A DNA stretch of 64,000 nucleotides from the IMG/VR virus record IMGVR_UViG_3300050821_002122, positions 124,001-188,000 of that record. One strand, 5' to 3'. Below the pieces are notes generated by a model, which ran no database searches, was not told the DNA's origin, and was given only the letters and a program-made list of their open reading frames with translations. Of this stretch, positions 1-50,102 are shown piece after piece; the stretch's first letter is position 1, and every line of letters starts with the position of its first letter. The stretch is from a virus. The translations under genes and the position numbers were made by a program.

Positions 1-351
1 CCTGTTATAGTTTAGCCGCATACCACTAAGTTCAGAGCCGTAAGTCAACGCCCAGGCGACTGGATTTGTCAGATCGCAGTCGCCCTCATAAAGCATGGTG
101 AGCATTTCCCTAACAACGTCTTGAACTTGGATTTCGCTGGCAGCCCAGAATATGAAATTTAGGACTTCATGTTCAAAAATAACGAACCGCGGGCTAGAGG
201 CACCCGCAGCAAGTGCAACGGTAATACGAGTATTAGCCCACGGGCTAACCAACTCGTCAACGAACAGCATGTAAATCTGTTGGTTCAAATGGTCCGATAT
301 ATAAATCCTGTCTACCTCTACCTGTTCTATGCTGTAGCGGCTTCCTTGCAT
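1..351 (-). CDS. Hypothetical protein, truncated by the window edge
   Basis: Reading leftward from the ATG at 351, 117 codons stay open to the window edge, so the C-terminus is missing. A GGAG ribosome site lies 5 bases before the ATG. The start overlaps the last 25 bases of the DNA polymerase gene, so the two are probably translationally coupled. Nothing in the visible part identifies a family; it is mixed alpha/beta in composition with an aromatic-rich middle. Confidence 0.75.
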   Translation of the reverse strand, partial: MQGSRYSIEQVEVDRIYISDHLNQQIYMLFVDELVSPWANTRITVALAAGASSPRFVIFEHEVLNFIFWAASEIQVQDVVREMLTMLYEGDCDLTNPVAWALTYGSELSGMRLNYNR

Positions 352-3300
352 TTAGACTCCTTGCCCTTATGAATGTAGATTGGCCGGATAGCTTCTACAA
401 TCTGCTTGTCCAGGTCGCTCACATTCAGTAGAGGATAATGTTTTTGTAGCCAATGACGGCATTTTTTATTAGCCCAAGGTTTGAAGATTTCTTGTAGCAC
501 ATCCTGTTCGGTTCTACCATCAGCCAACAGGCCAAGCTCTGCCGCTTCTTTTATAGAAGCCTGTATGCCAGAAACAATACTAGGTAAAGACCAATCCCAC
601 TTATGAGTAATGTCATCACGCGCCCCAAACTCCAACTCGATCTCAGGCTCTACCGGAAACTTGAAGTTGAATTCACGTTCGTAGGCCTCAGTTACACCGT
701 AAGTTGCACACCACTGGAGAATATGTGCATATGGAATAACCATAGCATACGGCACCGAATAGTAGTTCGCATCGTGAACGGCTCGATTGTACGGCACACG
801 TAACGACCATGCGTCATATTCAATACCCAGCAGTTCGCAAATCTGAGGCAAACGTTTGTAATAGTGTTCCATAATGATGCGACCAGCTTTGACGCCAATC
901 TCGGATGCCCAACCTTGGATTGGGGCATTGGAACCTCTACGCACTTGCTGCGCAATGATCTTCTTATCGCCCGTCATTGCAGCGAATAGGTGACGAATAC
1001 GACCGATTGGCGAGAATACGATGTACAGTTCTTCCGCCATCTTTTTCGTCTTGTTGGTCCAAGCACCAGCCTTCTTGAACTCAGCAAAGATTTTGTCGAT
1101 AAGACCTTGAGCGAACGGTGTGCGATCCTCCGCCAGCAAGTCCTTTAACTTCTTCTCGGCCTCAGCAGCCACCTTAGCAGGTGTCTCTTTGTTGCCAATC
1201 GTTGACATCAGTTCCAGCTTATCACCAGTCTTCGTGTCTTCGCCCAAGGTGGCCGCAGACTTACCGTAAATCAGACCGAAGATAATAGCCTTAATCGCAT
1301 CACGAAGGGGATGGTCTTTATCCACGATCTTGTTTAGCAACCGCTTCACGTTCAGGATATGGATATCACCGCGCAACTTTATATCAGCTAAAGCCTTTAC
1401 ACTTGGATGGCGGTAATCACCATCATCTTCGGCCATTGAATACATACCATCATTTGCGAATTCTGCATGATACTTCTTCGCAGCTTTGACGTAGGCCTTA
1501 TGTGCCAATTCTTGTGAGCCAAAGACACCTAAGTGCTTTACCTTTTTACGTGGACTCGGTTTTATCTGTGCTACCCAACTGCCTGCTTTCGGCCCAGGAT
1601 AAACACCTTTGTAACCAGAGCTAGTTTTTGTGGAATCAGTTCTGCGGTTTCTTGAATTCTCCAACCTAGTTGCTGGTCGTAGATTATTAATGCGATTGTT
1701 AAACGGATTGTTGTCTTTGTGGTCTACTTCAACTGGAAGGTACCCGTAAACCAGCAAAAAGGCTATTCTATGTGCTCTATACAACTCACCATTTAGGGAT
1801 AGGTACCACGAATCTTTACGTTTGGAGCCTGCCACACTTCCTATAGGTGTATTGCGGCTGCGAGCTTGTTTCCAGGTGAATTTTCCACTATCTGGGTCGT
1901 AAATAAACCACTCATCCATGAGTTTTTTTAGGTCTTTATCTTCTTGCGGAATACCAGGGATAGCTATATATGCCTGCCGCAATTTCTGACCAATGCGGAA
2001 AATACCAGCCAGCACATCGTCAAGTCCAACGTAAGACCACACACGTACCTCATGCGCGGAATAATCGTAACGCATGAGCAGATAGCCCTTAGGCGTAATG
2101 AACATGTGCTTGATGATCTTGGCCAATTTACCACGAGATGGAATCGTTTGCAAGCTTGGGTTCTTCGATGCCAGTCGCCCTGTAGCGACATCGAAATACG
2201 AATAGTCGGGTCGCAGATGATGGTCTTCAATACTGTCCGCATTAGAGCGGAGTTTTTTCAGCCAACCCTTAGCATAGGTGCCCAGCAGCTTAGAGAGTTT
2301 CGAGTAATCACCGTAGGCTGCTACGACCTGATTCTTATCCTTGTTGGCGGCAACAAAGGCTTTGTCGACCGACGATTCACCCTGCTTGGTCGTGTTGACC
2401 GGCTCGTAACCCATGACATCGAAGAATAGAGTACGCAAGTGATTACCCTTGCTAAGACTCAATGCCCAATTCAATGCCTTGGCTCTCGCTTTGCCGAACA
2501 GTCCTTTGGTTTTCAAACCGCTCTTAGCAAGTATGATATCGTTTGCCTTCACCGCCTCCGGGAACACACGGAATGCATTGCTGAGATTTTTCATCTCAGT
2601 ACGAAGCGGACTTTCTGTGGAGGTGAGATACTTCAGGTACTTCGCATCTATCAAGGACCCATCTTCGCGCAGGTGACTCAGTTGATGGACGGTATCGGAC
2701 ATTTGGTACTGCATATGACGTACGAAATACTCACCATAAGGCTTACCATCGATCAGCTGGTGATCTGCCATCTTGATCTGTTCTTGGCGCATTGCGAGAA
2801 TCGATACTACGTCCATGGCGGCATAGCGCAAGAAGTGCTTGTCGTTGGGCTTGATGTTACCGCAAGTGTTGCGATCTTCCTTGCTGAACTTCGTAGTCTC
2901 GCGGTAGTAGAAGTCGTTGCGATAGCTGCATAGCACAGCAGCCAAGTTACCTGGCTTTGATCCGAAGTTCGACAGCTCGACGATATTTTCATCGAGGTCA
3001 TGCTCACCCGCGATGATATCCCATGCGCGGTGTAGAATGATTGGTATCTTGAAATAGCGACGTATGACTCGCAGATCGTAGGGACCGTTAAAGAACACAA
3101 ACTCTTTAAGACCCTTCTTTTCTGCCTCACTGAAAAATGCCTTCAGTTCACGGCGTATGTATGCAAGTTCCTCTTTGGTCCACGGTGTCATTGGGTGGCT
3201 CAATGGAAGCACGTACCCGACGTCGGGATTCAATTCGGTGGCGAACTGCATCGTGTAGATTTTATTGAAGTGGACTGAGAGGTCTTTAGTCTCCGTATCC

Positions 3301-3998
3301 AATGCAATAGTCTTCGACTTGCGCAGGCGTACCATCAGCTTGTCGAATAATTCTATGGTGCCGATGTACTTAGGTTTAGGTTCCACGTGACCAATGTCAT
3401 GCGGATGTTTACCCAGCAATAGATTGTTCAAGTGTCTGCACCAGAAGCCCAGCAGATTGGCATACTTACCGTCTTTCTCCAACAATCGGCTGAAGTCCAA
3501 CGTCGATACGACTTTCAACTTCAGATCATGCGACTTGAGGTCATGGACCCATCCGCGCTTGTAGGTATGCTTCTCTACCTGCGGCCACATAGCGTTCATG
3601 GCTTCGTCACCGGAGACCAGTACATGCGTCGGCTGTAGTTTCTCAATAAGCTTGTGCATGTGGGCAGCGAACTCAAGTTCTGCTTGCTTGCGGGCTTTGC
3701 CCTTCAGGTGAAGGTGCCGTTTCTGATTGAAGTTCGCTACTGCGTAAGAAGCCTCGGCTGCACCTTCTTTGTAGGAGCGCACAATACCCCTGGTATACTT
3801 GATCGCGTTCTTGAATGCTGTGTTGACATTGCGGTCTTGAAGCAACCCTCGTGCTTTGAGATCGCGGCCGTCAACCGTTTGTAGGCATACCAGTACGCGC
3901 TTCTTACTTTGCTTCCAGTCAGAGCAACGAGGCATATGCAGATTGTATGCGTCCTCGTCCTCATATGGAAACTTGAATGTGGTCTCAAGCATATGCAC
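327..3998 (-). CDS. Family A DNA polymerase with 3'-5' exonuclease and an in-frame HNH-AP2 endonuclease insertion
   Basis: Replicative phage DNA polymerase, 1223 residues, unusually long for the family. Proofreading exonuclease motifs are seen in order: DTET near residue 233, NGPYDL near 305 and YAAMD near 393. Polymerase motif A (DYSAHEVR) lies near residue 646 and motif B (R-x3-K-x3-F-x3-YG as RDAIKAIIFGLIYG) near 900. Motif C reads VHDA near 1074, where most relatives have HDE. Between motifs A and B, about residues 683-850 form a complete HNH-AP2 homing endonuclease: DPDSGKFTWK start, VDHKDNN core, then an AP2-like SGYKGV...GVF segment. No intein splicing blocks are visible. The first 210 residues may be a uracil-glycosylase-like domain, as in some phage polymerases, but this is weak. 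The ATG at 3998 lies 20 bases downstream of an AGTAAATA box and after a terminator, so this gene probably starts its own transcript. Confidence 0.95.
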   Translation of the reverse strand: MHMLETTFKFPYEDEDAYNLHMPRCSDWKQSKKRVLVCLQTVDGRDLKARGLLQDRNVNTAFKNAIKYTRGIVRSYKEGAAEASYAVANFNQKRHLHLKGKARKQAELEFAAHMHKLIEKLQPTHVLVSGDEAMNAMWPQVEKHTYKRGWVHDLKSHDLKLKVVSTLDFSRLLEKDGKYANLLGFWCRHLNNLLLGKHPHDIGHVEPKPKYIGTIELFDKLMVRLRKSKTIALDTETKDLSVHFNKIYTMQFATELNPDVGYVLPLSHPMTPWTKEELAYIRRELKAFFSEAEKKGLKEFVFFNGPYDLRVIRRYFKIPIILHRAWDIIAGEHDLDENIVELSNFGSKPGNLAAVLCSYRNDFYYRETTKFSKEDRNTCGNIKPNDKHFLRYAAMDVVSILAMRQEQIKMADHQLIDGKPYGEYFVRHMQYQMSDTVHQLSHLREDGSLIDAKYLKYLTSTESPLRTEMKNLSNAFRVFPEAVKANDIILAKSGLKTKGLFGKARAKALNWALSLSKGNHLRTLFFDVMGYEPVNTTKQGESSVDKAFVAANKDKNQVVAAYGDYSKLSKLLGTYAKGWLKKLRSNADSIEDHHLRPDYSYFDVATGRLASKNPSLQTIPSRGKLAKIIKHMFITPKGYLLMRYDYSAHEVRVWSYVGLDDVLAGIFRIGQKLRQAYIAIPGIPQEDKDLKKLMDEWFIYDPDSGKFTWKQARSRNTPIGSVAGSKRKDSWYLSLNGELYRAHRIAFLLVYGYLPVEVDHKDNNPFNNRINNLRPATRLENSRNRRTDSTKTSSGYKGVYPGPKAGSWVAQIKPSPRKKVKHLGVFGSQELAHKAYVKAAKKYHAEFANDGMYSMAEDDGDYRHPSVKALADIKLRGDIHILNVKRLLNKIVDKDHPLRDAIKAIIFGLIYGKSAATLGEDTKTGDKLELMSTIGNKETPAKVAAEAEKKLKDLLAEDRTPFAQGLIDKIFAEFKKAGAWTNKTKKMAEELYIVFSPIGRIRHLFAAMTGDKKIIAQQVRRGSNAPIQGWASEIGVKAGRIIMEHYYKRLPQICELLGIEYDAWSLRVPYNRAVHDANYYSVPYAMVIPYAHILQWCATYGVTEAYEREFNFKFPVEPEIELEFGARDDITHKWDWSLPSIVSGIQASIKEAAELGLLADGRTEQDVLQEIFKPWANKKCRHWLQKHYPLLNVSDLDKQIVEAIRPIYIHKGKESKCKEAATA

Positions 3999-4426: not shown

Positions 4427-4786
4427 TTAGATACGCAGCATCGCCGTAGCGTCACTGAGGCGTTCGGTGATATTCTTGACGCGACACAGAAGGTGCTCAA
4501 GGTCTTGCTCGATTGGAGTCATCGCACGTGAAGGTTCTTCGTTACCACCTACTGCGTCTCTGCTGTCCATCAGCGAGATCGGTGCCAGTCGGTTGACGTG
4601 TTCGATCAGGACCTGTTCAGCATTGTACAACGCTACGCCGATCTCCTCGATGAACTCTTTCGTAGGTGAGATACGCGCCGCCTCAGGAACCTTGGTCAGC
4701 GTGCCAGTGCCAACCCCAGTATTTTGGGAGCCAGTCATAGCAGAACGGATTGAAGTGCCGACGATCATTGTCTTTTTAGATGCCAT
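4427..4786 (-). CDS. Hypothetical protein (119 aa)
   Basis: No family recognised. The first 40 residues are Ser/Thr/Gly-rich and probably disordered. The remainder is predicted helical with heptad-like spacing (IEQDLEHLLCRVKNITERL). An AGGAGAAT site precedes the ATG. The next upstream gene (4801-5142) has a similar helical core, so the two may be distant relatives, but the similarity is weak. Confidence 0.85.
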   Translation of the reverse strand: MASKKTMIVGTSIRSAMTGSQNTGVGTGTLTKVPEAARISPTKEFIEEIGVALYNAEQVLIEHVNRLAPISLMDSRDAVGGNEEPSRAMTPIEQDLEHLLCRVKNITERLSDATAMLRI

Positions 4787-4800
4787 AGTATTCTCCTGAG

Positions 4801-5142
4801 TTAGCCGATGAAGTTACGGCGAATTTGTGCCAGCCAGCGCGTGCGACGCTCGACTTCGCGGCTCATGTTGCGCAGTTGGTTCTGATATCCGGTGGCCGAC
4901 GATGACGTAGGTGGTATTTTCGATTCTTCCTCTTTGCACTCTTCTGACTCATCGAATAAATCTGGATTCACCAACGGCTTAACCGTGGCAGTCAGCAGTT
5001 CGGATTCTGCTCGTAAGTTATCGACAGCTTCGATCAGGTGGTTGAAGTCTGCTTGCAGGGGAGTAAGCGGACCACTGTCTCCTGGGACAACTTCGGGCAA
5101 TTCTGCGACACGTTCTTTTGCTTTGGATTTACGGGTAGTCAT
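4801..5142 (-). CDS. Hypothetical protein (113 aa)
   Basis: No family recognised. It has a basic N-terminal tip (TTRKSKAKER), a helical middle (LQADFNHLIEAVDNLRAESELL), an acidic Glu/Cys stretch near residue 70 and a basic, aromatic C-terminus. It overlaps the upstream gene by ATGA, indicating coupled translation. Confidence 0.85.
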   Translation of the reverse strand: MTTRKSKAKERVAELPEVVPGDSGPLTPLQADFNHLIEAVDNLRAESELLTATVKPLVNPDLFDESEECKEEESKIPPTSSSATGYQNQLRNMSREVERRTRWLAQIRRNFIG

Positions 5143-42618: not shown

Positions 42619-42697
<79 letters not shown>

Positions 42698-42776
42698 AGT
42701 TTTTGCAGGGTAGTAAATTAAGGTTGCAGGGACGTTTGTGAGTGTCGAAAACTCTCAACCATAAAAGGAGGTGCTT

Positions 42777-43397
42777 TTGAGTCTTCCAATAATGGTCAGA
42801 GCCGAACAACTTATCGCTGTTTCCGAGGCAGGTTTAAATAAAGATCATACTGACGTATGGTACTTAAAATGGATACGCCTCCGTAATAGCTCAAAGAGAC
42901 GTGGATTATCTTGTCATCTTAGTTTTGCTCAGTACCTTAAAAAGGCAGTATCAGCGGGAATTAAAAATCCTGATGAAATAGGGATACGAAAACATCAATA
43001 TAATCTAGGGAGGTTTGGCGACAAAGGTAACTATACAAAAGCAAACTGTAGATTTATTACAGTGGTTCAAAACAGAAGGGAGTCATGCTTAAATGGCGGA
43101 ACTCAAGCTAGTTCCACTAAACAAAAGGGAAGATCAGCAGAGACACATAGCTATATAGCTAATCGCGCTGACGCATTATCTGGTAGAACTAAACAGACTC
43201 ACGAGTATCTGAATCGATCAGCAGTAAAGAGAAGTAAATCATTTAAGGTTAAGTCACCTTCCGGTGTTTATTACCGCGGAATAAATCTTAATGAGTTTTG
43301 TACGGCAAATGATCTAACGATGTCAGCTATGTCCCGTGTTTGTATGGGGAAAGCAGCACATCATAAAGGCTGGACAGGAAAATATTTGAAGGTGTAG
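42777..43397 (+). CDS. Homing-endonuclease-like protein with NUMOD-type C-terminus
   Basis: A 206-residue protein. Residues about 35-105 contain the phage endonuclease pattern RRGLSCHLSFAQYL, then LGRFGDKGNYTKANCRFIT followed by N-R-R-E. The C-terminal segment (SGVYYRGINLNEFCTANDL, then SRVCMGKAAHHKGWTGKYL) fits NUMOD/IENR-type DNA-binding repeats of homing endonucleases. TTG at 42777 is the likely start, 5 bases after AGGAGG. The base composition is AT-richer than its neighbours, supporting recent acquisition beside the tRNA. Confidence 0.75.
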   Translation: MSLPIMVRAEQLIAVSEAGLNKDHTDVWYLKWIRLRNSSKRRGLSCHLSFAQYLKKAVSAGIKNPDEIGIRKHQYNLGRFGDKGNYTKANCRFITVVQNRRESCLNGGTQASSTKQKGRSAETHSYIANRADALSGRTKQTHEYLNRSAVKRSKSFKVKSPSGVYYRGINLNEFCTANDLTMSAMSRVCMGKAAHHKGWTGKYLKV

Positions 43398-44655: not shown

Positions 44656-45372
44656 ATGAACAACTCAACATCCAATAATAAAATCTGCACATTCACCAAG
44701 ATCAAAGCGTGGTATATGCCGGTCGACGCAGAGACCTATAAGCTTATGAAAGCGGCTGATGCACCATTGACCCGTGTTCATGAGAACATGATGCCCACAC
44801 TACTGATGCTGCTGAAGTCGCGCAAGCTGCGTGCCAAGGCAATAGACTTCAACGAAGCGCTACTCAATCCGTATCTCGATGAATTGGGCAGGCGTTGGCA
44901 GAAGAAACCACACCGCAAGGCAACGATTACGTCGTCCGTCTTAAAGTTTGAAACCGAACATGCATCAGCCGCAGAGCTAGCACGCGAAGCCATTCCGAAA
45001 CTGGAGACTTCCCTGCGCCGCTTCTTCCAACGGTGGGGCTTCGTTGCTGAGTTTCAGACTTCCGAACATCGAGGCAAGATCAAGTTCCATGTCTCATACA
45101 AATTCGACTCAAACAAAATGCCCATCATTCCACTGGTGGAAGAACCTGAGAGTCTGCCGCAGATACGTTTGAACCTCGGTTACGTACGCCTTACGCTCAC
45201 ACTCGGCTCGAAAGAGGTTGAGACCAACATTGCGCTCGCAGCAGGCACTGATTGGAATTCCATTCACACCTCACGCTGTCTGTATTCGCAGATCAGTGAT
45301 GTGCGTGCCATGATCGGTGCGCTTGCAGGCATCGTGTCGAAAGACGAACACAACGGCGACAACAAGTTATGA
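44656..45372 (+). CDS. Hypothetical protein (238 aa)
   Basis: No family recognised. Helical first 130 residues with Leu/Lys-rich helices (MPTLLMLLKSRKLRAKAIDF), then a strand-rich second half (KIKFHVSYKFDSNKMPIIPL; YVRLTLTLGSKEVETNIAL). It overlaps the next gene by ATGA. Confidence 0.85.
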   Translation: MNNSTSNNKICTFTKIKAWYMPVDAETYKLMKAADAPLTRVHENMMPTLLMLLKSRKLRAKAIDFNEALLNPYLDELGRRWQKKPHRKATITSSVLKFETEHASAAELAREAIPKLETSLRRFFQRWGFVAEFQTSEHRGKIKFHVSYKFDSNKMPIIPLVEEPESLPQIRLNLGYVRLTLTLGSKEVETNIALAAGTDWNSIHTSRCLYSQISDVRAMIGALAGIVSKDEHNGDNKL

Positions 45373-45587
45373 ACGCCCCCAAATATCGCCTACAGCGCGA
45401 TCATCAGTTTCATCTATCTACGGACGGCAAGAACACACTCTGTGGTCTGAGTGGCGACAAGTTCATTGTCTACTCTTCCAACCACAGTGGACCGTGTACT
45501 TGCCGCAGATGCAAAATGCAACTGGGTAGATCAATCATAAATGGGGAATACGATGGTAAAGAAAGCGGAAAAGACGGCGGAATATAA
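45369..45587 (+). CDS. Small zinc-ribbon-like protein (72 aa)
   Basis: It has CGLSGDKF and then CTCRRCKMQLG, a C-x-n-C-x-C-x2-C arrangement like small phage zinc ribbons. The last 12 codons overlap the remnant of the topoisomerase start at 45553, so the original layout was already overlapping. Confidence 0.8.
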   Translation: MNAPKYRLQRDHQFHLSTDGKNTLCGLSGDKFIVYSSNHSGPCTCRRCKMQLGRSIINGEYDGKESGKDGGI

Positions 45588-45672
45588 TTCAAGCCACATC
45601 GAAGTGCAAGGTGGTCTGGAAGGTATCAAAACGGGATTAACCAATGCAATTTACCAACGTACAAAATCCTAA
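45553..45672 (+). pseudogene. Displaced 5' remnant of the topoisomerase large-subunit gene
   Basis: A 39-codon frame whose first 27 residues match the start of the intact topoisomerase gene 1.1 kb downstream: EYNSSHIEVQGGLEGIK here and DYNSSHITTHSGLDGIR there, after similar Lys-rich starts (VKKAEKTA and KKTDKAA). After about position 45633 the match ends and the frame runs to a stop. I infer that the endonuclease gene at 45720 inserted here and brought a substitute 5' end with it. The remnant keeps a GGGGA site, so a short peptide may still be made. Confidence 0.8.
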
Positions 45673-45719
45673 GTACGCAATTTAATGGCATCGTCATTAA
45701 ATGTATCTAGGTGACTGCT

Positions 45720-46649
45720 ATGAAGAAATGGAAATCAGTTCCAACTGGAGATATTGGCAACGTAGGTGACGCGGTCCGACTTGGACCGCGTGCTTACTTG
45801 AAAGCCGGTAATGGTAGATGGGGTCTCGTGATAGACAGGCGTTTGATAGCTCAAATCAAACGCCTGTATGTCGTTCAAGGTATGAACTTGCGTGAAGTAG
45901 CTGAACTTCTGGTTTTGCCAGGCCATCCAAACATAAGCCACAGCCTAGTGCAGAGAATATGCAATCAAGAAGGTTGGATACGTTCACACTACGGTCGGCG
46001 TGAGGCTGCTTTGGCTTATCTCAAGAGGAATAAGAAGAAGATAGCCATCTTATTTACCAAACATGCCCTTACAGTTCGGGAGCTAGGATTTGTTACAAAT
46101 GTTAGAATACCATTTTTGTCTGAATTCATTTCTGACGATCTTGGTCTTAATAGAGATACCACAGGTATGCGTCCGATTAAGGATCGTGCCATCAATAGTA
46201 AAGAACTGCATATAGTTCCCAGAAATACATGGAATAGAATTCTTAGAACCGACCCAAACGATTTGACTGTAGCTGAGTACAAAGCAGCTATTAGAAGACT
46301 GACTGATGTGGTGTACCGAAGATTCTTCAATGAGGCTCATAAGGAAAGAAACTATGATGTCCACGTAGACCATATTTTCTCTTTGAGTGATGGGTACTAC
46401 ACCCGCAAAGGCGGTAAGCGCATAAAGCGCGATGAGGTTGTTCCATTTAAATATATGGTTCACCCAGAGAACATGCATATCGTCACACGCCAAGTAAATC
46501 TCTTGAAAGGTGAAAGATCAAACCACACCTTAGCACAACTTATAAAGAAAGTAGAAGCCTCTTCAATTCAACTCAAACCCATTAATCGCCGCAAAGAATT
46601 ACGCGTAATGGCAAATAAGATAAATCTGGAGCCTTATGAAGAAGACTGA
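45720..46649 (+). CDS. HNH homing endonuclease inserted at the topoisomerase start
   Basis: A 309-residue protein. An N-terminal HTH-like region (LYVVQGMNLREVAELLVL) precedes a helical middle and an HNH-type site near residues 210-260: VHVDHIFSLSDGY, then PFKYMVHPENMHIVTRQVNLLKG. ATG 45720 is preferred to GTG 45711, with AGGTGA upstream. Its last 14 bases overlap the topoisomerase start. The region is AT-rich compared with its neighbours. Position, composition and the remnant upstream all fit a free-standing homing endonuclease, comparable to mobA between T4 genes 60 and 39. Confidence 0.85.
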   Translation: MKKWKSVPTGDIGNVGDAVRLGPRAYLKAGNGRWGLVIDRRLIAQIKRLYVVQGMNLREVAELLVLPGHPNISHSLVQRICNQEGWIRSHYGRREAALAYLKRNKKKIAILFTKHALTVRELGFVTNVRIPFLSEFISDDLGLNRDTTGMRPIKDRAINSKELHIVPRNTWNRILRTDPNDLTVAEYKAAIRRLTDVVYRRFFNEAHKERNYDVHVDHIFSLSDGYYTRKGGKRIKRDEVVPFKYMVHPENMHIVTRQVNLLKGERSNHTLAQLIKKVEASSIQLKPINRRKELRVMANKINLEPYEED

Positions 46650-48612
46650 TAAAGCTGCTGATTATAATAGCAGTCACATAACTACACACAGCGGACTTGA
46701 TGGGATTCGAGTCAACCCGTCAATGTACCTCGGTAGTACCGGCGTCGATGGCGTCTACAAGTCGCTGGGCGAACTGACGGACAACGGCGTCGATGAGTAC
46801 CTCGCTGGCCGCAACAAAGCGATTCGTGTACACATCGATGCGGACGGTTCGTACTGGGTGCTGGATCAGGGTAACGGTATTCCGCAAGGAACCAAAGAGG
46901 TGCATATGCATGTCAATGGAAAAGATATCGTCAACAAGCTGCCCACGATGCAGGCAGTGTTCGGTGAGCTACACACCTCGGGCAAGTATCGCTCTGACGC
47001 CTACAAGACTTCGATTGGTACGCACGGTATCGGATCAAAGGGCACCAACGCCACCGCTGAATACTTTGATGTCAATACGTTCTACAAGAACGAGTGGTAC
47101 TCGATTGGATTCAAACGTGGCAAGCTTACGTCGAAGGTCCAGAAACTCAAGAAGGCACCGAAGGGACCAGACGGAAGCCTGAAGAGCGGTACGTGTATTC
47201 ACTTCAAACCTGATGCGAAGATATTCTCAGTCACATCGTTCCCAACTTCCATGCTTGTCGAATGGGCGAAGGTTACGTCGTATCTGAATCCTGGGCTCGC
47301 CATCGTGTTGTCAGGCAATCTGAAAGGCCAGAAAACGAAAGGCGGTCGTCTGGTCTTCTTGTCCAAGAAAGGACCGATCGAATACGTTGAGAAGCGTATT
47401 GCAGAATTAAAAACCGAGATGATCGGCAAGGGCAAAGTTTTTGAGTACAAATCCGATTTAGCTGATGTGGTCGTCGCGTTCACGATCCATGATTCGGCTG
47501 ATATACGAGGCTTTACGAATGGTCTGTCGAACAAAGAGGGCGGTACGCACGTTACATCGATTGTCGATGCGCTATACGACGGGCTATGTATTGCACTCAA
47601 GGCTGCAGGCAAAGAGAAACTGGTGTTTGCGAAGCCAAAGAAAGGCGAGAAGGGCAAACGCACGGTATTCAAGACAGCCGACTTCAAAGAGGGCCTCGTA
47701 GGCCTCATCAATGCGAAATTGCACAAAGCAGAATTCTCATCGCAAGATAAGGGCAAGCTGACTGATGCGCGGATGGCGAAAGACTTTCTTGCGTTGGCCA
47801 CCAAAGCAGCCACCGAGTTCTTTGCGAAGAATCCGAAGCTAGCGGCTACCTTGGCCGAACGCGCTGCCAAATTGGCGGCCCTAAAGTTCAACTTTGCGAA
47901 CTCCAAGAAGCTGGTGGCATCACTCAATCAGCTCAAGCGCAAGGGTATGCCTACGAAGTTCATGCCAGCGTTGAGCGACACGAAGGTAAAAGACCGCGAA
48001 CTGTTCATCGTCGAAGGTGATTCGGCAGGCGGCCCAGCTAAGCAAGCGCGCTTCCCGTGGCAGGCTGTATTGCCCATCAAGGGCAAGATCAGCAACGTCA
48101 TCAAGATGAAGGGTGACAAAGGACTGGACTCCGAAGACATCCTCCATATACTGGCGGCATCGGGCTTCGATCCGAAAGCCGCTGACCCTTATGCAAAAAT
48201 GACGGTCAGTAAAATAATACTGTTAGCCGATCCAGACCCGGACGGCTGGCACATTAACAGTCTTCTGTTGGCTTTGTACTACAAGTTTATGCCTGAGGCA
48301 TTTGCACGTGGCATGATTTACGTGGCTCGCACGCCGGAGTTCTATGCAATCCACGGCGGGAACCTATATCTGGATAATGGCGCGCAGGCGCTGCGTAAGA
48401 AACTCGCAGCAGCCAAGGTACCGAAGACCGCTGTCGTGAATCACATCAAAGGCTGGGGTGAAATCAACCCAGTGCTGATGCGTATTCTGGCAATGGATGC
48501 ATCAACCAGAACCTTGATTCAGATCGAATCACTGACGGACGCGGACGAGAAGTTCCGCAAGCTGATGGCTGACGACACCGAAGAGCGCAAGCAACTGATG
48601 GGGGTACAATGA
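46636..48612 (+). CDS. Type II topoisomerase large (ATPase/TOPRIM) subunit
   Basis: A 658-residue GyrB/ParE/gp39-type subunit. GHKL ATPase motifs: E46 with DN at 49-50, D77-x-G-x-G81-IP and GTHGIGSKG at 128-136. TOPRIM motifs: EGDSAGG near 459 and DPDPDG near 533. These bind ATP and the metal used in strand cleavage. The start at 46636 has GGAG 5 bases upstream and overlaps the endonuclease gene by 14 bases. The first 27 residues are a diverged copy of the remnant at 45553. It overlaps the small subunit by ATGA, giving coupled, equimolar synthesis. Confidence 0.95.
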   Translation: MKKTDKAADYNSSHITTHSGLDGIRVNPSMYLGSTGVDGVYKSLGELTDNGVDEYLAGRNKAIRVHIDADGSYWVLDQGNGIPQGTKEVHMHVNGKDIVNKLPTMQAVFGELHTSGKYRSDAYKTSIGTHGIGSKGTNATAEYFDVNTFYKNEWYSIGFKRGKLTSKVQKLKKAPKGPDGSLKSGTCIHFKPDAKIFSVTSFPTSMLVEWAKVTSYLNPGLAIVLSGNLKGQKTKGGRLVFLSKKGPIEYVEKRIAELKTEMIGKGKVFEYKSDLADVVVAFTIHDSADIRGFTNGLSNKEGGTHVTSIVDALYDGLCIALKAAGKEKLVFAKPKKGEKGKRTVFKTADFKEGLVGLINAKLHKAEFSSQDKGKLTDARMAKDFLALATKAATEFFAKNPKLAATLAERAAKLAALKFNFANSKKLVASLNQLKRKGMPTKFMPALSDTKVKDRELFIVEGDSAGGPAKQARFPWQAVLPIKGKISNVIKMKGDKGLDSEDILHILAASGFDPKAADPYAKMTVSKIILLADPDPDGWHINSLLLALYYKFMPEAFARGMIYVARTPEFYAIHGGNLYLDNGAQALRKKLAAAKVPKTAVVNHIKGWGEINPVLMRILAMDASTRTLIQIESLTDADEKFRKLMADDTEERKQLMGVQ

Positions 48613-50102
48613 GCAAGAAAGAGAAAGTGAATAGTGGTCTGAAGGCTCGTACCATTCGACAAAGCATCACCGCATTTGGCATGCGGGCCCTCAAGCTCTA
48701 CGGCGATGAGGTGAACTTGGACCGAGCGACGTTGGATATCGGCGATGGCTTGAAGCCAGTTGCGCGTCGCATTGCCTACGGCTCATCGCAAGTAGCGAAA
48801 GAGAAATTCGCCAAGTCTGCACAGATCGTTGGTCACGTGATGGGTGTCTATCATCCTCACGGCGATAGCTCGATCTACGGCGCAATGATTACGATGGTCA
48901 ACTCATGCACGCCACTGATGCATGGTGACGGTAACTGGGGATCGATGCTGGACGGTGCAGGCGCCATGCGCTACACCAATGCGCGTCTTTCGCACTTCGG
49001 CAGAACTGGCTTCGATCCGAACTACATCAATCCGGCTGTCACATCGATGGTACCGAACTACGATGACAAGACTCTGGAACCTGTCAGCATCCCGTTCCCA
49101 TTGCCCGTCGTGTTGTTCAATGGTGGTGAAGGCATCGGCTATGCTACGGCATCCAATCTGCCGGCATTCACGCCTGATTCGGTGGTAGAGATTCTGAAAC
49201 GAATGCTCAAGGGTGAGAAGTTGAAGGTAGCCGACTTCGCAAAGACGTTGAAGCCGGTCTACAAGTGGGGCGGTGAATTTGTCAACACGAAAGAGAATAA
49301 GGCTGCGTGGCTTGAGATGTTCACCTCGAACAAAGCCTCCGTTCAGTTCCAAAGCCCATTGATGGTCGATACTGCAAAGCGTACTATCGTCATCAACGAG
49401 TGGGTGAACGGTTTGAACGTGCTGAAGTTCATCGACTGGTGCAAGGCTCTCCCAGAAGTGCAGAGCGCGCATCCTACGAAAGGCACAACCGAGTTCACTA
49501 TCACGCTGAAAAAAGGCTACAACTCGGTCCAATTCGATTCGTTGGTCAAGAAGGTCCAACTCAAGACACGCTGCCGAACCTCGTTCAACATTAACGTTAC
49601 TTCGCGCAAGGCCATCGTCAATGACGGTGTGGTTGATTATGAGGTAGCTTTGTTGAGTCTATCCGTACCGCAGCTTGTGCTGGCGTGGTTGCGCTATCGC
49701 ATTGAGGTCGAAACCAAGAGCCTCACATATCGGATTGCAAAGCAGGACGAACTGATCGCCTACAGTGAATTGCTGATCTATGCTGCGTCGAAACTCGATG
49801 TCATCATACCGATCATCAAGAAGTCGAAACAGCCGCGCGTTGACTTGGCGGCGAAGCTCAAGATCACCGAGCAGCAGGCCGATCAAATTCTCGATCTAAC
49901 GCTGCGCAAGCTGACGCGGTTGGACCAAGACGAAATTGAGGCGCGTCGCAAAGAACAGATCAAGCATCTCAAGCAATTGAAAGAGTGGCTGGCGAAGCCC
50001 AAGCGGAAGGTCGCTGCGGATATTGATCTAGCGATGGAGGCGATCAAAGCGGATCGTGACTACGCGAAAAAAGCAGCGACACAGGTCCTGAAGGTTGCTT
50101 AA
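48609..50102 (+). CDS. Type II topoisomerase small (cleavage) subunit
   Basis: A 497-residue GyrA/ParC/gp52-type subunit. The catalytic Tyr122 lies in AMRYTNARLS. The DNA-gate region (YHPHGDSSIY, 81-90) and the GEGIGYATASNLP segment are present. It is much shorter than bacterial GyrA and ends after the coiled-coil part, so the DNA-wrapping C-terminal domain is absent, as in T4 gp52. With the large subunit it should relax or decatenate DNA during replication rather than supercoil it. Confidence 0.95.
   Translation: MSKKEKVNSGLKARTIRQSITAFGMRALKLYGDEVNLDRATLDIGDGLKPVARRIAYGSSQVAKEKFAKSAQIVGHVMGVYHPHGDSSIYGAMITMVNSCTPLMHGDGNWGSMLDGAGAMRYTNARLSHFGRTGFDPNYINPAVTSMVPNYDDKTLEPVSIPFPLPVVLFNGGEGIGYATASNLPAFTPDSVVEILKRMLKGEKLKVADFAKTLKPVYKWGGEFVNTKENKAAWLEMFTSNKASVQFQSPLMVDTAKRTIVINEWVNGLNVLKFIDWCKALPEVQSAHPTKGTTEFTITLKKGYNSVQFDSLVKKVQLKTRCRTSFNINVTSRKAIVNDGVVDYEVALLSLSVPQLVLAWLRYRIEVETKSLTYRIAKQDELIAYSELLIYAASKLDVIIPIIKKSKQPRVDLAAKLKITEQQADQILDLTLRKLTRLDQDEIEARRKEQIKHLKQLKEWLAKPKRKVAADIDLAMEAIKADRDYAKKAATQVLKVA

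Follow-up and report, generated by a model that had tools for sequence, protein, structure and literature searches.

A candidate mobile cassette in phage topoisomerase genes: a free-standing HNH endonuclease and a recoded 5' end of the host gene

The DNA considered here (the window) is a stretch of 64,000 nucleotides, positions 124,001 to 188,000 of a viral IMG/VR record of 189,689 bp (IMGVR_UViG_3300050821_002122). It contains two adjacent genes for the subunits of a type II topoisomerase. Between the large-subunit (GyrB-like) gene and the conserved gene that usually precedes it lie an endonuclease-like gene and a short second copy of the topoisomerase start (Table 1). The remnant opens with an ATG at 45553 and its reading frame is closed by a stop at 45672. 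The complete GyrB-like gene (46636-48612) is a single open reading frame of 658 amino acids, full length in comparison with the corresponding gene of locus L001. The small reading frame at 45369-45587 was found in no relative.

Table 1. Features of the topoisomerase locus in the window
Feature	Coordinates	Strand	Remarks
Conserved 238-aa gene	44656..45372	+	Directly 5' of the topoisomerase in insertion-free relatives (tblastn)
72-aa ORF with CxxC-like pattern	45369-45587		Between the 238-aa gene and the stub; 3' end overlaps the stub start
Displaced topoisomerase 5' end (remnant)	45553..45632	+	Start codon and ribosome-binding region kept
Degenerate stretch from remnant to endonuclease	45633..45719	+	May contain an eroded remainder of the old 5' end (..ATGTATCTAGGT..)
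Free-standing HNH homing-endonuclease-like gene, 309 aa	45720..46649	+
HNH core HVDHI ... HPENM ... N..K	46362..46508	+	Residues invariant in three divergent relatives
GGAG	46628..46631	+	Within the endonuclease coding sequence; from its sequence, probably the ribosome-binding site for the new topoisomerase start
Recoded replacement topoisomerase 5' end, codons 1-26	46636..46713	+	Overlaps the endonuclease stop by 14 nt
Resident remainder of topoisomerase II large subunit (GyrB-like)	46714..48612	+	phrog_543, E=5.5e-125; 67% amino acid identity to L001
Topoisomerase II GyrA-like subunit	48609..50102	+	PF00521, E=2.3e-71

An earlier, sequence-only reading of this DNA claimed that the topoisomerase start occurs on both sides of the endonuclease, and this is the case. 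The remnant product begins MVKKAEKTAEYNSSHIEVQGGLEGIK... and the working N-terminus, starting at 46636, begins MKKTDKAADYNSSHITTHSGLDGIR... A tblastn comparison of the working N-terminus with the window's own upstream DNA gives 56% amino acid identity over 25 residues (E=4e-7), and the DNA match between the two copies outscores all shuffled controls (2000/2000, p<=0.0005). The same reading described proteins that align well over diverged DNA. The two example strings that it quoted are correct, and over 16 aligned codons the copies have 10/16 residues in common, yet 27/48 nucleotides; seven of the ten codons for shared residues are spelled differently. It placed the duplication in the first 27 codons. 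The duplication stands, and the 3' limit of the recoded region can now be set at about codon 26 (46713).

The recoded end is foreign in composition. Its GC content at third codon positions (GC3) is 0.35 and that of the endonuclease 0.39, against 0.63 for the rest of the topoisomerase gene; the first 26 codons of 24 other genes in the window have a GC3 of 0.57 +/- 0.07 (sd). Because the recoded end and the endonuclease are alike in this low GC3, the composition fits their joint arrival. We also considered whether the remnant is nearer than the working copy to the uninterrupted allele of L001, and found no support for this; the distances are equal. A possible second, eroded remnant in 45633-45719 is not significant (p=0.69 with a protein profile, p=0.03 with DNA).

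The endonuclease gene has its own start and stop codons. Its product appears to consist of a helix-turn-helix-like N-terminal part and an HNH C-terminal part resembling endonuclease VII. Pfam gave no HNH domain match, and PHROGs gave weak matches to endonuclease VII (phrog_1035, E=0.004 for the window enzyme, and 0.011). The H-x-D-H-I...H-P-x-N...N-x-x-K pattern is invariant in three divergent relatives. A single-sequence structure model was unusable (pLDDT 33). When the 309-aa protein was compared by tblastn with 50,697 phage records, a single phage matched, Burkholderia phage BcepSaruman, which stands in those records under two accessions (33% identity, 99% query coverage, E=9e-42). The helix-turn-helix-like N-terminal part of this homologue matches the N-terminal part of an HNH endonuclease, phrog_7545 (E=9e-8). 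A peptide-pattern search of IMG/VR and GTDB genomes revealed no further relatives of the endonuclease itself. One distant HNH relative is present in the phage genome of locus L012, where (L022, 1081-2460) it is fused in frame ahead of a Holliday junction resolvase (RuvC-like). Here too, the 5' end of a DNA-processing gene is the part concerned.

Many homing endonucleases reside in introns or inteins, so a self-splicing element of this kind has to be considered as an explanation of the insert. We find it hardly credible and rejected it. Rfam has no group I or group II intron match at E<=1, a duplicated coding sequence is unlike the product of an intron, and an intein is excluded because of the stop codons and the separate start codon. 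The catalytic motif, the presence or absence of the gene among phages and its location outside any intron or intein together lead us to class it, from its sequence, as a putative free-standing HNH homing endonuclease.

Phages without the insertion, with which the sequence-only reading had proposed a comparison, reveal what the locus looked like before. In the closest IMG/VR relative (L001, 189,544 bp), whose topoisomerase is 67% identical to that of the window, the 238-aa gene is followed by a gap of 33 nt and then by an uninterrupted topoisomerase gene. Judging from its sequence, this empty allele shows the ancestral order. By tblastn, the 238-aa gene precedes the topoisomerase in all related IMG/VR and Burkholderia phage loci except L015, which has no match to it. 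We screened 15 IMG/VR loci (redundant ones included), 10 annotated phages and the window for a duplicated start. A convincing duplication upstream of the topoisomerase was found in just the two loci having this endonuclease; the window and L011/L012 also give weak matches on the reverse strand (E=0.03-0.04), which are due to chance. One further locus, L010, has an unrelated HNH-AP2 endonuclease gene in the same intergenic gap (4441-4983; HNH_3 plus AP2, PF13392, E=1.6e-15; phrog_99), with no stub beside it. Since a different endonuclease is found there, the gap upstream of the topoisomerase may be regarded as a hot spot for such genes.

BcepSaruman is the second of these two loci. It and the window phage are both large and only distantly related; their topoisomerases are 48% identical. 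As in the window, the endonuclease homologue (BcepSaruman_171) immediately precedes the GyrB-like gene, so that one site and one endonuclease family are met with twice. The sister phage BcepSauron lacks the endonuclease. With near-identical genomes and a fixed site, BcepSaruman and BcepSauron form a natural plus/minus pair. They are 96% identical up to position 3996 of the BcepSaruman locus (L003) and 98.9% identical from 5052 onward. The BcepSaruman stub starts at 3928 and equals BcepSauron at 38/39 nt over the compared codons, up to ...CGCTTTCCTGAA. The bases that come next in BcepSauron, AACATTCAAAAA, are absent from BcepSaruman. The working 5' end of BcepSaruman (4983-5051) is very different. 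From codon -20 to codon -2 relative to the MYIG motif it has 35/54 nt (65%) in common with BcepSauron, and among codons for the same residue 8/13 are changed, versus 0/76 in the next 82 codons (Fisher p=1.8e-8). The 246 nt on the 3' side of the working end are all identical to BcepSauron (246/246), and from 5052 (AATCCCGGCATG...) the two phages agree for 594 nt before the next mismatch.

A resident-like stub, a divergent working end and an identical gene body therefore show that in BcepSaruman the resident 5' end was displaced, and that a foreign replacement end, which came with the endonuclease, is in use. The host gene continues in frame from a foreign gene end, and its native end has been left on the other side of the endonuclease. 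The resident type of the BcepSaruman remnant, the foreign spelling of the working 5' end and the abruptness of the junctions give good support to insertion with exchange of the flank, as proposed earlier for the window. Among 14 relatives we found no donor of the recoded end; the closest, L006, matches at 37/54 nt. Junctions in the window are not exact, because the window phage is without a close sister genome. Even so, homology of its stub stops at the place equivalent to the BcepSaruman junction, and the junctions in the topoisomerase gene agree, both within about 3 codons.

The same comparison bears on a simpler scheme in which the start of the topoisomerase gene was partially duplicated in tandem, the copies drifted apart, and the endonuclease later landed between them. 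Two tandem copies of one gene start are what such an event would leave. In BcepSaruman, however, the dead copy is the sister allele, the working copy is divergent and the neighbouring DNA is identical. Drift after a local duplication cannot give this pattern, because it is the dead copy that matches the sister and the working one that has diverged. We rejected local duplication for BcepSaruman on this comparison and consider it very improbable overall.

Could the remnant instead have a function that accounts for its retention, as a leader peptide or a small regulatory gene? A start codon and a reading frame of about 40 residues are indeed retained in both phages. But beyond the homologous part their sequences are wholly different, and no relative has a separate gene at that place, nor a conserved one unrelated to the topoisomerase. 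Such a role is improbable.

We suggest, with a probability of roughly 0.78, that the endonuclease and the recoded 5' end of the gene that it has entered constitute one mobile cassette. The most likely target of nicking or cutting by the endonuclease would be a point about 20 codons into an uninterrupted topoisomerase gene, immediately ahead of the NPxMYxG motif. During repair a copy of the cassette would be inserted between the resident 5' end and the gene body: the left broken end, with the resident start, would be joined to the donor's stub region, while the right end would recombine in the gene body just past the cassette. The resident 5' end would stay behind as a stub, usable as a left homology arm if homing is active. 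Since its ribosome-binding site is retained, the stub probably guides ribosomes toward the endonuclease. A full-length essential topoisomerase would be restored by the 5' end that the cassette brings along, whose start codon overlaps the endonuclease stop. The overlap is present in both phages (14 nt in the window, 11 nt in BcepSaruman), and so is CTGGAG in the last endonuclease codons, which could serve as a ribosome-binding site; the two genes may be translationally coupled. The divergent spelling of the new end should hide the target from the endonuclease and thereby provide self-protection. The divergence of the 5' ends does not by itself prove selection for resistance. The recoding might have been selected, or it might be merely the natural divergence of the donor allele, and the sequence is compatible with both.

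A less elaborate explanation is ordinary intronless homing with asymmetric repair. If so, the donor's endonuclease was located between genes, upstream of an intact divergent topoisomerase, and the replacement 5' end is a passenger. The right end would have recombined at the conserved NPGMYIGG, and the left end would have been joined with little homology, leaving the stub. The right crossover in BcepSaruman does fall at a strongly conserved motif, HNH endonucleases can occupy that intergenic spot without a stub, as in L010, and free-standing phage endonucleases are known to co-convert flanks (PMC2988022). Against this explanation, the same anatomy is found twice, with the same overlap between endonuclease stop and gene start. 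In addition, NPVMYIG is encoded out of frame just before the BcepSaruman endonuclease (p=4e-4). This piece looks like an eroded older topoisomerase start, as if part of the stub from an earlier host had travelled with the cassette; the donor itself would then already have had a remnant. For these reasons we regard asymmetric repair with a passenger end as rather unlikely, and prefer the mobile cassette.

The window and its relatives hold other insertions. Intein-like inserts are present at DPDPDG/HIN of the toprim domain in GyrB of L003/L004, L006, L008, L010, L012, L013, L014 and L016, the last of which has a further one at SIG/THGIG, within an ATPase motif. In the window, the reading frame for a family A DNA polymerase (327-3998, minus strand) is enlarged in frame by about 180 aa that include HNH_3 (E=1.4e-13) and AP2 domains; no intein motifs were recognised in this insert by eye. 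The polymerase is uninterrupted in six relatives, at about 1040-1060 aa. A tRNA-Met (CAT) gene at 42619-42697 is directly followed by a second HNH endonuclease gene (42771-43397; phrog_2081, E=5.5e-11), before which we found no duplicated gene end.

In our search of the literature, which was made in open-licence papers and is hence weak evidence, we found no description of a phage endonuclease with a replacement 5' end, and the arrangement is absent from the titles and abstract excerpts of papers naming BcepSaruman. Several known systems come near to it. The closest in host gene and enzyme class is mobA of phage T4 (genes 39/60), which is likewise a free-standing HNH endonuclease in the gene for a phage topoisomerase large subunit (PMC2988022, PMC5009743). 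The sequence-only reading drew this parallel, and it holds for the enzyme and the gene. It is only partial, because mobA splits its host gene into two polypeptides and supplies neither a replacement gene end nor a remnant; a linked 50-nt insert, which is bypassed, has been proposed to give protection against self-cleavage (PMC2988022, PMC5009743). The topoisomerase large subunit of the window is unsplit. Aeromonas phage Aeh1 mobE, in nrdA, is also an HNH endonuclease inside an essential phage gene, but it leaves an enzyme encoded by genes in pieces, whereas the cassette described here would restore one full-length gene (PMC2988022). T4 SegF, SegG and SegE, with their marker exclusion, cut the endonuclease-free allele in a neighbouring gene and co-convert flanks. 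They are located between intact genes, and a displaced gene end has not been described for them (PMC2988022).

Closest in logic, we believe, are endonuclease ORFs of fungal mitochondria that carry a replacement C-terminus, known from atp6 of Allomyces and from atp6, atp9, cox2 and nad3 of Glomus (PMC3630166). There too the endonuclease in an essential gene is accompanied by a foreign version of one gene end, whose divergence is largely synonymous, and the native end is displaced. For the two ends of Glomus atp6, identity is 63.5% at the DNA level and 91% at the protein level (PMC3630166), the former value being close to the 65% of BcepSaruman. In the fungi, however, it is the 3' end, or C-terminus, that is replaced, the remnant is downstream and the enzymes are of the LAGLIDADG or GIY-YIG type (PMC3630166). 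In the phages it is the 5' end, or N-terminus, with its own start codon; the remnant is upstream and the enzyme is HNH. The phage cassette would work like the fungal ORFs, and we do not file it among them, as its N-terminus is replaced and its enzyme is HNH. It may be described as their mirror-image, N-terminal phage form, for which we found no published description.

If correct, this means that in a compact phage genome a selfish endonuclease can inhabit an essential gene with no need for an intron, intein or split protein. Annotators and phylogeneticists should be aware that an essential phage gene can have a 5' end of other ancestry than the rest. Since the plus/minus pair exists in isolated phages, BcepSaruman and BcepSauron, which have the same host species, the mechanism is directly testable. 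An endonuclease that brings a recoded replacement for the part it destroys would follow, in DNA phages, the logic of engineered rescue gene drives. In synthetic homing-rescue drives, the nuclease inserted into an essential gene is accompanied by a copy of the missing part that is recoded and resists cleavage. They are engineered, RNA-guided and used in animals, whereas the phage cassette is natural and protein-guided. We would give even odds to the broader suggestion that phages possess a natural homing-rescue drive, in which an endonuclease aimed at an essential gene always travels with a recoded, cleavage-resistant start and uses the dead stub as a homology arm. The same topoisomerase codons would then have been entered in separate phage lineages, and relatives fronting other genes, such as the HNH and RuvC-like resolvase fusion of the L012 phage, may be variations of one strategy.
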